A stretch of 64,000 bases of DNA from Bacteroidota bacterium (GTDB taxonomy: Bacteria; Bacteroidota; Bacteroidia; Chitinophagales; Chitinophagaceae). The notes under the pieces are model-generated. The model made no database searches, was not told the origin of the DNA, and saw only the letters and a list, made by a program, of their open reading frames with translations. A program made the position numbers and the translations under genes. This document shows positions 49,094 to 64,000 of the stretch, piece after piece (positions within the stretch are counted from its first letter, which is position 1; each line of letters begins with the position of its first letter). The DNA lies in assembly GCA_018267955.1 (NCBI GenBank), contig JAFDXL010000009.1, positions 1 through 64,000 on the forward strand, in the 5' to 3' direction.

Positions 49094-49165
49094 AAAATCT
49101 TACCCCTTACCTCAATCTGCGAATGTACGTTAGGGGCATTGTTTTTGCGCTGGTATCGTCGTCTT

Positions 49166-51622
49166 ATGGAAAAAACAAGGATAAACCTCGACATATTACT
49201 ACCCGAAGTGCCGGATGAGCGCGATGCCTGCGTAGCCCGCATCATTCATTCACTGCAACGTAAAAAGGGGATAGATACAGTGCATATCGTTCCCGCGAAT
49301 GCGGATAAACAGGCGCAGTTATGTTTTCATTACGATCCTGGTGTTATTTCGGTAACAGAGGTAGAAGCGCTCGCGAGGGAGGCAGGTGCGAAGCTTACGG
49401 AGCATTACGGGCATCTTCTTTTTGATGTTTCCGGCATCCGCCACGTAAGGCACGCACGTATTATCGAAAACGCGTTAAAACACCTACCGGGAATTATATC
49501 TGCTTCCGTATCGGCAAGTGGTTTTATCAGTATAGAATACGAAAAGGAAAAGCTATCACCGGGGCAGGTACGGCAAAGCATAAAAAAATCCGGACTAAAA
49601 ATAAATGAAACAGCCGGTGTTCAGCAAAATGAAGAAGCAGGCCACGCAGAACATGATCACGAGGGACATGATCACGACCACTCACACGGTGGCATATTCG
49701 GCGAAAAAACAGAGCTCATCTTCGCTATCATTTCCGGCGCGTTCCTTGGGGTTGGCTTTGGGCTCTCATTTGTTACCGGTATCGCTGCCTGGGTTCCCAT
49801 TGCATTCTATTTAGGTGCCTATTTCTTTGGTGGTTTTTTTACCACTAAAGAGGCTATTGCTGCCATAAGTAAGGGCGATTTTGAAATAGATTTCCTGATG
49901 CTGGTGGCTGCCGTCGGCGCTGCAGTTCTTGGACAGTGGGCCGAAGGTGCACTGCTTTTATTCCTGTTCAGCATTGGGCATTCACTGGAGCACTATGCTA
50001 TGGAGAAGGCAAAGAAATCAATTGCAGCTTTAACAGACCTGGCGCCAAAAACTGCTTTGCTCAAACAGGATGGATCTTTAAAGGAAGTAAATATCTCGGA
50101 CCTGAAGGCTGGCGATGTTATTGTAGTAAAACCCAATTCTAAAATTGCTGCAGATGGTATCATCATCAAAGGTAATAGCAGTGTCAACCAGGCACCTATT
50201 ACCGGCGAAAGTGTGCCTGTTGATAAAAACGCTGTCGATGATCCCGGTATCGATGTTTCGCGGGCAGATACTTTAGATCCAGCTTACAAAGTGTTTGCAG
50301 GCTCTATTAACGGGGCAGAAGCATTGGAGATAAAAGTCAGTAAGGTAGCTGCCAATTCCACCATCGCACGGCTCATTAAATTGGTCAACGAAGCGCAGAC
50401 CCAAAAATCTCCTACTCAGAATTTCACAGACAGGTTAGAAAAATATTATGTGCCATCCGTGCTTGTACTGGTGGGCTTGCTGCTGTTTGCCTTCGTGGTC
50501 ATTGATGAGCCATTCAGCGCCAGCTTTTACAGGGCAATGGCGGTATTGGTAGCTGCCAGCCCCTGTGCATTGGCAATTGCTACACCCAGCGCTGTGCTCA
50601 GTGGTGTAGCAAGAGCGGCACGGGGTGGGGTGCTGGTAAAGGGAGGTAAGCCATTGGAAGAATTAGGTACGCTTACAGCTATCGCGTTTGATAAAACAGG
50701 TACGCTTACAGAAGGTAAGCCAAAGCTTACTGGTGCATATCCTTTAAATGGCTTGTCCGAAGCCCAATTGCTGGAAATTGCCATCGCGGTAGAAAAGTTA
50801 AGCGATCACCCTCTTGCTGCTGCCATTGTAAAAGGAGGATTAACAAAGATCAATAAAGATGTGCCGCTGGCTAACAAGGCACAGGCTATCAACGGCCGGG
50901 GAATAAAGGCTGATTACAACAGCACTGAAGTACTGATAGGCAACAAAGAACTGTTTGAAGATGGCGGGAACCCATTGCCCGGCGATATCAAAAAGCAGGT
51001 GGAGGATTTGGAACGGGAGGGAAATACCACGATGCTGGTGCAGCAGGATAATATCCTCATTGGGATCCTTACCCTTATGGATATACCGCGCGATGATGCA
51101 CGTGATACGCTATCACAATTGCAGCAACTCGGCGTGCGGAAAATGATCATGCTTACGGGAGATAATCAGAAGGTTGCCGAAGCAATTGCAAAGGAGATCG
51201 GTATTACACAGGCAATGGGCAGCTTAATGCCGGAGCAGAAGGTAGATGCTATTGATACTTTGAAACAAAAAGAGAAGAAAGTAGCAATGGTGGGCGATGG
51301 CGTAAATGATGCGCCGGCTATGGCGCGTAGTACTGTGGGCATTGCTATGGGGGCTGCCGGTAGTGATGTGGCGTTGGAAACTGCCGATATTGCTTTGATG
51401 GCCGATAAGCTAAGCAATTTGCCGTTTGCCATCGGGCTCAGCAAAAAGGCAAGTCGCATTATAAGGCAAAACCTAGTTATCAGCCTGGGTATGGTGATAA
51501 TATTAATACCGCTTACTATTGCCGGTATAGCACACATTGGCCCCGCGGTAATCGGGCACGAGGGCTCCACGCTGGTGGTGGTTTTCAATGCATTACGGCT
51601 CCTTGGTTATAAAAAGAAATAA
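49166..51622 (+). CDS. P1B-type metal-transporting ATPase (P1B-4 signature)
   Basis: An 818-residue pump from ATG 49166; the frame begins at a TTG at 49139. The N-terminal 150 residues hold two HMA-like folds without any CxxC, followed by a His-rich linker at 160-174 with 7 His. Membrane metal motif SPC is at 465-467 (CPx position), the phosphorylated Asp509 is in DKTGT, and the last span has HEGST at 798-802. SPC plus HEGxT is the P1B-4 (Co/Ni/Fe/Zn efflux) signature. It exports metal to the periplasm. No metalloregulator is adjacent. Confidence 0.92.
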   Translation: MEKTRINLDILLPEVPDERDACVARIIHSLQRKKGIDTVHIVPANADKQAQLCFHYDPGVISVTEVEALAREAGAKLTEHYGHLLFDVSGIRHVRHARIIENALKHLPGIISASVSASGFISIEYEKEKLSPGQVRQSIKKSGLKINETAGVQQNEEAGHAEHDHEGHDHDHSHGGIFGEKTELIFAIISGAFLGVGFGLSFVTGIAAWVPIAFYLGAYFFGGFFTTKEAIAAISKGDFEIDFLMLVAAVGAAVLGQWAEGALLLFLFSIGHSLEHYAMEKAKKSIAALTDLAPKTALLKQDGSLKEVNISDLKAGDVIVVKPNSKIAADGIIIKGNSSVNQAPITGESVPVDKNAVDDPGIDVSRADTLDPAYKVFAGSINGAEALEIKVSKVAANSTIARLIKLVNEAQTQKSPTQNFTDRLEKYYVPSVLVLVGLLLFAFVVIDEPFSASFYRAMAVLVAASPCALAIATPSAVLSGVARAARGGVLVKGGKPLEELGTLTAIAFDKTGTLTEGKPKLTGAYPLNGLSEAQLLEIAIAVEKLSDHPLAAAIVKGGLTKINKDVPLANKAQAINGRGIKADYNSTEVLIGNKELFEDGGNPLPGDIKKQVEDLEREGNTTMLVQQDNILIGILTLMDIPRDDARDTLSQLQQLGVRKMIMLTGDNQKVAEAIAKEIGITQAMGSLMPEQKVDAIDTLKQKEKKVAMVGDGVNDAPAMARSTVGIAMGAAGSDVALETADIALMADKLSNLPFAIGLSKKASRIIRQNLVISLGMVIILIPLTIAGIAHIGPAVIGHEGSTLVVVFNALRLLGYKKK

Positions 51623-60008: not shown

Positions 60009-62450
60009 TTAGTTTCCAAGTCCGCTTGTCTGTACACGTTTGCTTTCTTCCTCAGCTCCGCTTTGAATTTGTTTCGGCCCTTTTGCCTGGTGGTTACCAA
60101 AACGATAGGTGAAAGAAAGTTTTACCTGGCGTGTTTCTTGTTTACCCGAAGCCCAAACTTTCTGACCGGAGAAGTCACTGTTGGCGCTCCACTTCAGCGA
60201 GTTAAACAAGTCGCTTACTGATACCTTAACGGTTGTCCTGCCTTGCATGATCTTTTTCTGAACACCTGCATCTGCGCTCCATATGGATGCTGACTTCATG
60301 CTTCCCTGCCAGATCGATGGTGTTGTGTAAAAGCCGCTCAGTTCTGCACTCCAGTCTTTGCCAAAGCTATAGCTGTTTTGCATGAAAAAGTTGGCTGCCC
60401 ATGTATCAATATTTATATCTCTTCCGGCGCCGTAAGATGCCTGGTATTTCGAATAGTATCCGTTAGCACTGGCAAAAAAGCTATAGGCTTTGTATTGGAA
60501 CGCATAGCTCAGGTTCAGGTTGGTAATATCCTGGGTAGCTAAGTTGCGGTTAGAGAGAAAGCTCTTCAAGCCGGCTGCTGTATCCACTACTTGTCCAAAT
60601 ACATCATCTACATGGCTATAGCTAAGGCTGCTGTTCAGGCGGAATTTGTAGGTATAGGTCAGGCTTACTGTATTGCTGTATTGCGGCCTGAGGTCTGTAC
60701 TGCCCTTATGAAAGCCATATTCATTGATACGATACTCAAATGGATTCAGGTCTTTATAAACAGGCCTGTCAATACGTCGGCTGTAAGCCAGCACAAACTG
60801 GTTAGCTGTTTTGGGGGCAATTGTTACAGAAACACTTGGAAAGAAGTCAAGGTAGTTTTTGGTGAAATTTTGGTTGACAGCTACCCAATGATTAGGGGTG
60901 TTTTCCCATTTTCTCAAATCTCCTTTTATAGAGGTAAGCTCCGCGCGCAATCCTCCCTGTACAGCAAAACCTTTGAATTCGCCTGCGTACTTAGCATATG
61001 CTGCGTTCACATTTTCTGCATATTGAAAGAAATTGCTTGCTGTTCTGTCCAATGCCAGTGCGCCGCTATGCTCATTATACTGGTCGAAGGTGTTATCCGT
61101 TTTTACATAGCCAAACTTTCCACCGAAACCTATATGACCTATAGCGGTGTTCTGCTCATAGTCTGCCTTCACCGAATAGATGTCAATACGTGTAGGGCTT
61201 TCTATCTGGTAATTCCTGGTGTTGACGATATTTTTACCATCGGCATCTAAAAAGGTATTGGGTTGCCATTGGCTTTGGTTCAGTGAATAATAGCCATAAT
61301 CCCCTGTAAAGTTTAGGCTCCTGCCCTTACCATCTGCGTACGAATAATAGACGTTTGTGTTTACGTTATCATTCTTCATCTTATTGATGTTGGCCGCATC
61401 CAGCGTGCGGGCTGTTTTGCCAGTTGTTTCATCCAGGATATAAGTATAGTTTGTGTTTTCCAGTGTAGGTGTCGCGAAGCTGCCATTCACCATAACGCCC
61501 AGTGAATTTTTTGCGTTCAGCGTATAGTCAACGCCCGCTTTAAAGTTATGGCTGTTGTTTTTAAACAATAACTTATTCTTCTGATCCAGGGATGTATCAT
61601 TCAAATTTCTGTAAAGGTTAAAATCCATGCCTGTATTGCCATAGGCGCCATTGTAAGACCCGTAAAGGTTCATCTTTTCATTACGGTAATTAATGGAAAG
61701 GCCGTCATCAACTCTTGTATGGCAGCTTACACTAACGCCTGTGCTGACGTTGCCATTGAATCCCGCTGATTTGTTCTTTTTCAATCGTATGTTGATCACT
61801 CCTGCGGTACCTGCCGCTTCATATTGCGATGAAGGATTGGTGATGATTTCTATGGCTTCGATCTGCGATGACGATAAAGATTTCAGGTAGTTCGATAGGT
61901 CTTGCGATGAAAGGGGAGAAGGGCGTCCGTCAATGTATATCTTTACACCATTCTTGCCGTTTACGCTTAGCTGGTCATCTTTGTCTATCATCACCCCCGG
62001 CGATTTGCGCAATAGCTCCAGCGCATCGGTGCCCGTTGCGTTGATGGTACCTTCTACATTTAGTACTATTTTATCCGGTTTGGTCTCCACCATTGGTTTG
62101 CGTACAGAGACTACAACATCCTTTAATTGTACATCCGTCTTGCGCAATATCATAGCGGGCAATACAACCGGCTCGTTGCCCGAATAGAATTTGGATGAAT
62201 AGGCAGTCTGATAGCCCACATTATTAATGCGCACTAAAAGGCTGTCCGCTCCTGTAGCATTAAGATTGTATTTACCATCTACCAAAATGTTTTGGTCGAT
62301 CACTGCGCTGTCTTTTGCACGCAGCAAAGATGCCACTGCACCGGTCAGTTCGTTGTTTGTGTCGTCTTTAACAATGCCGCTAATCTGTTGTGCATGTGCT
62401 GCCGTTGTTACAAAAACAGGCATTAAATAAAGGAATAATCGTTTTTTCAT
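60009..62450 (-). CDS. TonB-dependent receptor family outer-membrane protein
   Basis: An 813-residue protein. Signal peptide (about 1-20, ending AHAQQ). A CarboxypepD_reg-like domain (about 22-100) leads into a plug-like region (KIYIDGRPSPLSSQDLSNYL, NPSSQYEAAGTAGVINI). The C-terminal part is an OMP_b-brl_3-type barrel ending SFTYRFG plus a polar tail. This fits the 'outer membrane beta-barrel family' of TonB-type receptors that lack a canonical lumen signature. It lies 93 bp after the GNAT gene, same strand. Confidence 0.88.
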   Translation of the reverse strand: MKKRLFLYLMPVFVTTAAHAQQISGIVKDDTNNELTGAVASLLRAKDSAVIDQNILVDGKYNLNATGADSLLVRINNVGYQTAYSSKFYSGNEPVVLPAMILRKTDVQLKDVVVSVRKPMVETKPDKIVLNVEGTINATGTDALELLRKSPGVMIDKDDQLSVNGKNGVKIYIDGRPSPLSSQDLSNYLKSLSSSQIEAIEIITNPSSQYEAAGTAGVINIRLKKNKSAGFNGNVSTGVSVSCHTRVDDGLSINYRNEKMNLYGSYNGAYGNTGMDFNLYRNLNDTSLDQKNKLLFKNNSHNFKAGVDYTLNAKNSLGVMVNGSFATPTLENTNYTYILDETTGKTARTLDAANINKMKNDNVNTNVYYSYADGKGRSLNFTGDYGYYSLNQSQWQPNTFLDADGKNIVNTRNYQIESPTRIDIYSVKADYEQNTAIGHIGFGGKFGYVKTDNTFDQYNEHSGALALDRTASNFFQYAENVNAAYAKYAGEFKGFAVQGGLRAELTSIKGDLRKWENTPNHWVAVNQNFTKNYLDFFPSVSVTIAPKTANQFVLAYSRRIDRPVYKDLNPFEYRINEYGFHKGSTDLRPQYSNTVSLTYTYKFRLNSSLSYSHVDDVFGQVVDTAAGLKSFLSNRNLATQDITNLNLSYAFQYKAYSFFASANGYYSKYQASYGAGRDINIDTWAANFFMQNSYSFGKDWSAELSGFYTTPSIWQGSMKSASIWSADAGVQKKIMQGRTTVKVSVSDLFNSLKWSANSDFSGQKVWASGKQETRQVKLSFTYRFGNHQAKGPKQIQSGAEEESKRVQTSGLGN

Positions 62451-62543: not shown

Positions 62544-63212
62544 TCAGGAAATTGTTTCCGGCTGGCGATGGCCAACACAGGCACTGCCTGCTTCAGCGCA
62601 ACAGCAGCTTGCTGTTTTGTTCTTAACAAAAGGGCTGCTGCAATTCCAGCAGCTAGCTGCCGGTTGCTCAGATAGCTCGAAGCCCATTTGTTCTATAATA
62701 TTTTTTTCAGTGACAGAAACCAAGTTGGGTTGAAAGCTAGGCTGCAATGCATCATTAAGATAGAGTATCCCTGTATTGCGAAAACCTGCCTTTACTATAC
62801 CTCGTAGCGACGCCTTGTTTTCCGGTGCGTGTATGATCCAGAACTGGTCTGCTTCTATTTGCTCGTACTTAATAATATGCTGCAGCAGCGCCGGGTAAAT
62901 GCCAAGCCCCCTGTATGCGTTTGCTGTTCGGAAGTTCCACAGGTAGCGGTTACTTGCAGGTAATATAATATCGTGATTCAATTCCCCGATGCCTGCTTTT
63001 TTTCTTGCCATCCAGCCAAAAGCCGCCGGTTTCCCGTTTATAAATGCTACAAATGCCACGTGGTCGTTTGTCAGCCTATCGTTTATCTTTTCAACAGGGG
63101 CATCGCTCATTTGCGATAGTAACGCTACGTCTGTACTTCTTTCGATATGCAGGCCTTTGATGGGCGGCAGTTCCGGCAGTTTATCGTTGGTTGAAAATGT
63201 ATAAAGCGACAT
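62544..63212 (-). CDS. GNAT acetyltransferase with a cysteine-rich C-terminal tail
   Basis: A 222-residue protein. The GNAT core (about 20-165) has the acetyl-CoA loop YRGLGIYPALL and a NKASLRGIVKAGF final segment. The last 36 residues (187-222) form a separate tail with 6 Cys (188, 191, 203, 204, 205, 212), and the core has none. Such a tail is unusual for GNATs. The gene lies 75 bp after a Cys-rich peptide gene with a stem-loop between, suggesting joint function, perhaps metal binding or modification of the peptide. The pairing is inference; no family is known to me. Confidence 0.8.
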   Translation of the reverse strand: MSLYTFSTNDKLPELPPIKGLHIERSTDVALLSQMSDAPVEKINDRLTNDHVAFVAFINGKPAAFGWMARKKAGIGELNHDIILPASNRYLWNFRTANAYRGLGIYPALLQHIIKYEQIEADQFWIIHAPENKASLRGIVKAGFRNTGILYLNDALQPSFQPNLVSVTEKNIIEQMGFELSEQPAASCWNCSSPFVKNKTASCCCAEAGSACVGHRQPETIS

Positions 63213-63251
63213 TGAAGAATTGATTTATTGTTTGTGTAATGATTTTAAATA

Positions 63252-63279
63252 GCGGAGAGAAACCTGGGTTTCTCCCCGC
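63252..63279 (-). terminator. Stem-loop between the peptide and GNAT genes
   Basis: GCGG and GAGAAACC pair with GGTTTCTC and CCGC (one mismatch), 13-bp helix, about 8 bases after the peptide stop. On the minus strand TATTTAAAATC follows, so it may stop part of the transcription and raise the peptide:GNAT ratio. Confidence 0.5.
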
Positions 63280-63287
63280 ATGTTTGT

Positions 63288-63419
63288 TTAAGCGCAGCAA
63301 GTGCAGCCGCATGTGCAACCAATGCCCGGGCAGTTATCGCCGCAGGTACAAATACCTGTTGATGCGTTGATTGCTTGTTCAGAAGCGGTGCTGCAGTTGC
63401 ATTTTTTTGACTTTTCCAT
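63288..63419 (-). CDS. Cysteine-rich 43-residue peptide (metallothionein-like)
   Basis: A 132-bp ORF (ATG 63419, TAA 63288-63290), too short for common ORF lists. The peptide has 10 Cys in 43 residues: 7, 9, 24, 26, 30, 35, 37, 39, 41, 42. The N-terminal MEKSKKCNCS is charged and the C-terminal half reads CTCGDNC then GCTCGCTCC. It has no signal peptide, so it is likely cytosolic. Cys-x-Cys pairs recall metallothioneins; a precursor of a modified peptide is the alternative. TACTTTTG -7 box lies at 63459-63466. Co-directional with the Cys-tailed GNAT gene. Not confirmed by homology. Confidence 0.65.
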   Translation of the reverse strand: MEKSKKCNCSTASEQAINASTGICTCGDNCPGIGCTCGCTCCA

Positions 63420-63458
63420 TTTTGCTTATTTTTTTTGGTTTAAAAATTATTGATAATG

Positions 63459-63466
63459 CAAAAGTA
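63459..63466 (-). promoter_or_regulatory. -7 box for the Cys-rich peptide gene
   Basis: TACTTTTG on the minus strand fits TAnnTTTG, 40 bases before ATG 63419. No -33 element is clear at 20 bp. Confidence 0.4.
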
Positions 63467-63612
63467 GTTTGGCGCAGAGGGGGCATTGTTACACCATGGA
63501 GTGTTCGTTGTATATAATTCCCTTTTTGCAAAAAATAAGCATTCACATCTCCGTAAAGCAGTTCCCTATATGTCCGCAATTATGGTATTTTTATGTACAG
63601 AACTTTTGCCAC

Positions 63613-64000
63613 ATGCCCCAGCCCAAAGCATTTATGTATATCAGCCCGACGCGTATGATGCTGGTTTCGCCGCATTTGGTGGCCGAGGTGCATCAGCATG
63701 CAGTGATCCAGTTCACCTGTTCGCTTGACGGAACGCCTTTTTCTGTTTGGACGGAAGGGGATGATTGGCAAAAAACAGAGGCTGTGCTTATCAACTCGGG
63801 CGTTGCACATAGCGTTAAGGACTTTAGCGGCTGGCAGGCTACTATCTGCATTATACCGGATGCAAGATTAGGCAGCCTGGTACAGGAGCGTGTTTTAGAG
63901 GGTAAAGAGGTAAAGTATTTCCATGCAGGGGATATTGCTCCTATATTAGAATTGATACAGCATACCCGCCACCAGCCCATTGCAGATAGCCATAGTTTTC
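63613..64000 (+). CDS. AraC-type regulator, N-terminal sensing domain (3' end outside window)
   Basis: The frame is open from ATG 63613 to the edge, 129 residues. It may start at ATG 63634 (MYISPTRMM) instead. Cupin-like segments HLVAEVHQHAVIQFTCSLDG and VLINSGVAHSVKDFSGWQATICII are typical of the N-terminal domain of AraC regulators; the HTH would lie beyond the window. It is divergent from the Cys-rich peptide gene, 193 bp away, and a likely regulator of it. Confidence 0.65.
   Translation, partial: MPQPKAFMYISPTRMMLVSPHLVAEVHQHAVIQFTCSLDGTPFSVWTEGDDWQKTEAVLINSGVAHSVKDFSGWQATICIIPDARLGSLVQERVLEGKEVKYFHAGDIAPILELIQHTRHQPIADSHSF

Follow-up and report, generated by a model that had tools for sequence, protein, structure and literature searches.

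A candidate copper-regulon gene pair in Chitinophagaceae: a metallothionein-like peptide and a Cys-tailed acetyltransferase

Small copper metallothioneins are known from bacteria, but they are few, and to our knowledge no bacterial metallothionein has been reported with a modifying enzyme of its own. We know of no acetyltransferase partner of MymT, and both SmtA and PmtA are mainly zinc-related. Known copper regulators of bacteria include the CueR, CsoR and CopY types. As described in one source (PMC7558416), MymT is a mycobacterial copper metallothionein, small and rich in Cys, encoded by a previously unannotated ORF and required for copper resistance. The same source and a second one (PMC11237414) present SmtA and PmtA, respectively, as small Cys-rich bacterial metallothioneins.

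The window analysed here – the whole stretch of 64,000 nucleotides of DNA from a member of the Chitinophagaceae – encodes near its end a peptide that is like MymT in its small size and high Cys content. It differs in having no Pfam or NCBIfam match, and is set beside MymT by description, not by sequence. Compared with SmtA and PmtA, again by description, it differs in lying behind a copper-gene promoter and in belonging to a family in which 10 of 12 members have no His. The gene pair of which it is part has the same promoter element as the bacterial copper genes for CopA, CopZ and multicopper oxidase, and an AraC-type neighbour with an HMA-like motif (HMA-AraC); the regulator thus appears to differ from the CueR, CsoR and CopY types. 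The enzyme partner and the AraC/HMA-linked promoter are what is new here, while small bacterial copper metallothioneins themselves were already known. A search of open-licence PMC papers returned nothing recognised as describing a metallothionein-GNAT pair. The reading that we favour on balance, from sequence comparison, is that copper induces a metallothionein-like peptide which buffers Cu(I) and outnumbers the Cys-tailed acetyltransferase made with it. The features of the locus are:

60009–62450, minus strand: TonB-receptor-like outer-membrane barrel (OMP_b-brl_3 + Plug) downstream of the GNAT gene, an accessory member
62544–63212, minus strand: GNAT-fold acetyltransferase, 222 aa, PF00583 at 22.0 bits against a cut-off of 20.7
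62547–62654, minus strand: Cys tail of the GNAT, CWxCxSP ... CCC ... C, six Cys invariant in 13/13
63252–63279, minus strand: terminator- or attenuator-like hairpin between peptide and GNAT, from folding of the spacer
63288–63419, minus strand: 43-aa Cys-rich, metallothionein-like peptide with 10 Cys and 5 CxC, kept core CxCGxxCx4CxCGC
63450–63534, minus strand: conserved promoter/operator region of the peptide gene, about 85 nt, consensus TATATAAATC ... TGTAACA, then the -7 box
63459–63466, minus strand: Bacteroidota-type -7 box TACTTTTG (TAnnTTTG), 40–47 nt 5' of the peptide ATG
63613–64000, plus strand: AraC-family regulator, divergent, incomplete at the edge of the window and read in the contig to its end at 64410
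64746–65321 of the contig, beyond the window: second AraC-type regulator (HMA-AraC), N-terminus VKNMVCQRC

Several of these features had been noted in the sequence-only reading, and they stood. It had given 10 Cys in 43 residues for the peptide ORF, and re-reading the ORF gave the same count. It had placed six Cys of the GNAT entirely within the last 36 residues, where the translation has them (residues 188, 191, 203, 204, 205 and 212). The partial AraC-like regulator that it saw diverging from the pair runs in the contig from 63613(+) to 64410, and the TonB-type barrel that it saw after the GNAT on the same strand proved to be the OMP_b-brl_3/Plug protein listed above.

The peptide has the sequence MEKSKKCNCSTASEQAINASTGICTCGDNCPGIGCTCGCTCCA. 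Among the 614 ORFs of 25–80 aa in the window, its ORF has the highest fraction of Cys and is alone in having at least 10 Cys in at most 50 aa. None of 2589 control ORFs of the same length range (20 stretches, 280 kb, from the genomes of relatives) reached 20% Cys. A second ORF in the window exceeds 20% (9 of 44 residues; 62292–62426(+)), but it is within the barrel gene, on the opposite strand. What decides that the peptide ORF is real is its conservation in relatives. A codon comparison of close pairs gave thin data – two pairs differ at 1 and 3 bases, and a third differs at 18 bases, with more replacement codons (10) than silent ones (3).

The family comprises 12 peptides, two of them from the named genomes of Ilyomonas limi (whose locus matches that of G101) and Flavihumibacter solisilvae, both of which we take to be Chitinophagaceae. 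The peptides are 25–43 aa long with 7–12 Cys, and all 12 have 3–6 CxC motifs, the core CxCGxxCx4CxCGC, and a Lys 1–4 residues before the first Cys, which in five is the sole Lys. Ten have no aromatic residues and the other two have one each; His is absent from ten. The peptides thus have the features of the metallothionein class: small size, high Cys content, many CxC motifs, and few or no aromatics. Pfam and NCBIfam gave no match for any of the 12 at E≤10, so the peptide is said to work like a metallothionein and is not assigned to a named family. A profile search of solved structures with the peptide gave one match, at E 0.3, which is without meaning. No signal peptide was found by eye; the N-terminus consists of a few polar residues, then Cys. 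The peptide is likely to be a Cu(I)-binding protein of the metallothionein-like kind.

The enzyme belongs by profile to the same fold family as the GNAT N-acetyltransferases (PF00583, which matched 11 of the 13 GNAT members at E≤1), and scores above the curated cut-off. It differs from them in its Cys-rich C-terminal tail of about 36 residues, and a profile search of solved structures found no relative at E≤0.01. An alignment of 13 full-length GNATs shows no variation at the six tail Cys, nor at the Trp and the subsequent SP of CWxCxSP. The acetyl-CoA motif of GNAT enzymes is Q/R-x-x-G-x-G/A; at this place all 13 have RG(L/K/Q)GIY, with Tyr in the final G/A position. An AlphaFold2 model made from three sequences was poor (pLDDT 46). 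The tail was also considered as a possible copy of the peptide, which was rejected because their motifs differ by eye.

To find relatives, 394 genomes of the same family were searched with a four-sequence GNAT profile and a 12-sequence peptide profile. The GNAT profile matched 20 genomes, of which 11 have an intact gene, at 12 loci, and three have remains only – truncated in G134, and decayed or tail-only in G066 and G395. The rest were set aside: G100 has a weak tail-like match with stops, and G005, G070, G177, G185 and G214 match part of the GNAT core only, with no Cys tail in the proteins of G005, G177, G185 and G214. Peptide matches were considered strong at E<1e-8, and those with E>0.01 (14 rows) were not counted. 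Strong matches were found in 10 genomes at 11 loci, each of them directly upstream of a GNAT; G257 has two copies, both paired. The hypergeometric probability of this co-occurrence is 5e-19, with relatedness of the genomes ignored. The conserved pairing for which the sequence-only reading had proposed looking was therefore found at 11 of 11 strong loci, and in Flavihumibacter solisilvae as well; the outcome that it had named as refuting, a lack of homologues with conserved Cys beside such GNATs, did not arise. In the three genomes with GNAT remains, the peptide profile gave no strong match. The GNAT of G140 is intact, but this peptide is missing from that genome, and some 1 kb upstream there is a Cys-rich peptide of another kind.

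Beyond the family sample, full-length GNATs were found in a phylum sample of 395 genomes only in G000 (the window genome) and G022, with partial ones in G066 and G493. In an order sample of 298 genomes they were found in G000, G022, G101, G140 and G212, all of the same family, with partial ones in G134 and G066. Both samples overlap the family sample. With full-length matches confined to one family, the unit is patchy and family-restricted in these samples. A plasmid collection contained one distant GNAT, on plasmid 2 of Gemmatirosa kalamazoonensis (L045, from 4001), which is of another phylum; this protein has its own Cys tail, beginning CWRC. No clear peptide match was found on that plasmid (best E 0.113), the peptide search of the plasmid collection found none, and a phage search gave no GNAT match.

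The peptide gene is upstream of the GNAT gene and separated from it by a spacer of 75 nt; the window spacer forms a predicted hairpin of 12 bp, with a folding energy of -21.4 kcal/mol and z -7.0. A hairpin is present in all 12 spacers, with z from -3.3 to -7.0 and divergent stem sequences, and several are followed by U runs; in the L017 spacer, 2 of 200 shuffles fold as well as the native hairpin. The earlier suggestion of a stem-loop here that could raise the ratio of peptide to enzyme is supported. On the other side of the peptide gene, TAnnTTTG, which we take to be the -7 box consensus of Bacteroidota, lies within 50 nt of the peptide start at 10 of the 12 loci, 39–47 nt before the ATG, and the remaining two carry TAATTTTAC. 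The peptide promoters share a further conserved element about 20–50 nt further 5' of this box. When the 12 peptide promoters were made into an nhmmer profile and run on the locus stretches, it also found three oxidase promoters, that of an HMA chaperone, that of a different Cys-rich peptide (L033), and, at the single control locus that carries HMA-AraC and copA, that of a copZ-like gene.

A promoter model was built from the peptide promoters alone and used to search 12 genomes at E≤0.05, with up to 150 first-look candidates scored per genome. Among the candidates scored there were 53 matches, 11 from the training set and 42 others. 23 of the 42 precede recognised copper/HMA genes: 5 multicopper oxidases (MCO), 6 CopA, 7 CopZ, 4 other HMA proteins (one as second gene) and 1 HMA-AraC. 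Another 5 precede a second small Cys-rich peptide. Four are doubtful – two CusB/HlyD-type fusion proteins, one Met/His-rich protein and one DUF4396 protein. The last 10 have no recognised copper gene (one of these was not read), and some of them score well, such as G173:C316 at E 5e-6. In L134 and L136 (G173:C316 and G088:C20:63105), from two genomes of one genus, the match lies before the gene for a large protein with no evident copper link. Targets were assigned by reading, and ten proteins – nine from these neighbourhoods and the CopA of the window genome – were run against Pfam, which named two ATPases, an oxidase, three HMA proteins, the DUF4396 protein and the HlyD protein; the Met/His-rich protein and one other stayed unnamed.

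Ten family genomes without a GNAT match had 17 promoter matches at E≤0.01. Of these, 12 precede genes for copper-type ATPases, HMA proteins or HMA-AraC, one a second-type Cys-rich peptide and one a reductase as in the copA cluster, with three unassigned. The promoter argues for copper because copper genes are few per genome, and since it is common to recognised copper/HMA genes, both in genomes with the pair and in genomes that lack it, the pair very likely belongs to a copper regulon. The metal-handling unit proposed earlier is supported by this shared promoter, and the metal can now be named more sharply as most probably copper. In the window genome the one strong promoter match is at the pair; in the copA-copZ cluster there is no more than a very weak one, before copZ, and this speaks against one operator being common to both in this genome.

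Peptides of the second small, Cys-rich type (CxNxNCTCExC..., grouped by eye into one family) differ from the first and have the same copper promoter. They were seen in four genomes, two of which have two copies, at these positions:

L132 593–706; L135 579–692 (minus strand); L131 669–782; L124 480–593; L033 5859–5981; L180

The neighbours of the pair were compared between 14 GNAT loci (13 intact, 1 truncated) and 20 control stretches taken at round positions on the same contigs. HMA-AraC genes are present at 9 of the 14 GNAT loci and in 1 of the 20 controls (Fisher p 3e-4, for loci that are related and stretches of which some are shorter), and the one control stretch also holds copA and a copZ-like gene. 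At the other 5 loci HMA-AraC is absent from the stretch examined, which in three cases covers less than 14 kb. The first AraC regulator has relatives at 7 of the 14 loci, and multicopper oxidase genes were found at 3, each against none of the 20 controls. Close orthologs of the barrel were found at 6 of the 14, with one distant match among the controls.

The N-terminus of the HMA-AraC protein looks like a heavy-metal-associated domain. Five AraC proteins with a CxxC motif were scanned with Pfam; two relatives, L030 and L034, gave a weak HMA match that does not reach the cut-off (E about 0.04), and the protein of the window genome itself gave none, so the label HMA-like comes from a reading of the CxxC motif. 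The window genome has two regulators that match along this part, one beside the pair and one directly upstream of copA. The one beside the pair probably runs the copper regulon. The copA cluster of this genome (G000:C3, ca. 98040–104893; L166, also L151 and L159) contains HMA-AraC, copA, a reductase-like gene, a copZ-like gene and a multicopper-oxidase-like gene. The window also has an ORF like a P-type metal ATPase (49139–51622(+)); it lacks the CPC motif, and is therefore probably not a copper exporter.

In the proposed mechanism, excess cytoplasmic Cu(I) would be sensed by the AraC-type activator through its N-terminal HMA-like CxxC motif, and the activator would bind the conserved operator just 5' of the -7 box, as its linkage to the pair and the conservation of the promoter suggest. 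The promoter would then drive a short, abundant message for the 25–43-aa peptide, which may wrap Cu(I) in a thiolate cluster. The hairpin after the peptide gene would end most transcripts, so that less GNAT is made, presumably by attenuation. The GNAT tail, CWxC...CCC...C, probably binds the same Cu(I), and might either dock on the loaded peptide or switch the enzyme. The favoured site of acetylation would be the N-terminal amine of the peptide or the conserved Lys shortly before its first Cys.

The strict pairing, together with three broken GNATs in genomes without the peptide, suggests that the GNAT serves the peptide. Caution is called for by G140, where the Cys-rich peptide is of another kind, and by Gemmatirosa, whose plasmid has no clear peptide match. 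The peptide is the favoured guess at the substrate, and a tentative one. The fuller version is somewhat unlikely as it stands: a dedicated, copper-gated metallothionein acetyltransferase, whose tail would read or receive Cu(I) from the loaded peptide and which would acetylate the N-terminus or the conserved Lys, locking the copper-loaded form or tuning its stability. It is quite possible instead that the GNAT leaves the peptide alone and acetylates another protein or a small molecule during copper stress, its tail being its own Cu(I)/Zn site or a thiol switch and the two genes sharing no more than a promoter. The GNAT core is ordinary for its fold, and both G140 and Gemmatirosa fit such independence; but a GNAT comes after the peptide at every one of the 11 strong loci, whereas the barrel, oxidase and AraC genes nearby differ from locus to locus, and the GNATs that are broken are in genomes where the peptide is absent.

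Other explanations concern the peptide itself. A zinc or cadmium metallothionein with incidental proximity to copper genes has a precedent in cyanobacterial SmtA, which PMC7558416 describes as binding either Cu or Zn, with a structure determined in the Zn form; it is nevertheless improbable here, as in many genomes the promoter also precedes genes for CopA, CopZ and multicopper oxidase, and 10 of the 12 peptides have no His. The secreted, re-imported metallophore that the sequence-only reading had offered as its bolder option would be a chalkophore-like copper scavenger, modified by the GNAT and taken up through the TonB-type barrel. Close barrel orthologs do accompany 6 of the 14 GNAT loci, but at the other 8 no barrel was found in the stretch examined, no signal sequence was seen by eye, reading of the neighbouring ORFs found no exporter, and the common promoter precedes genes of copper export and detoxification; this idea is unsupported and very unlikely. 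That the ORF is untranslated and the conserved feature is an RNA leader would suit the conserved hairpin 3' of the ORF, but the protein core is kept across peptides of 25–43 aa with differing sequences, and this is the least credible of the explanations.

Genes as short as that of the peptide are easily missed. Under the favoured reading of a copper-buffering peptide with a Cys-tailed enzyme partner, the peptide appears to be one of a family whose promoter is defined, whose regulator is probably known and whose enzyme partner is always the same. The promoter model finds further small Cys-rich peptides, and the second type described here emerged from it. With the pair it can also be tested directly whether an enzyme modifies a bacterial metallothionein.
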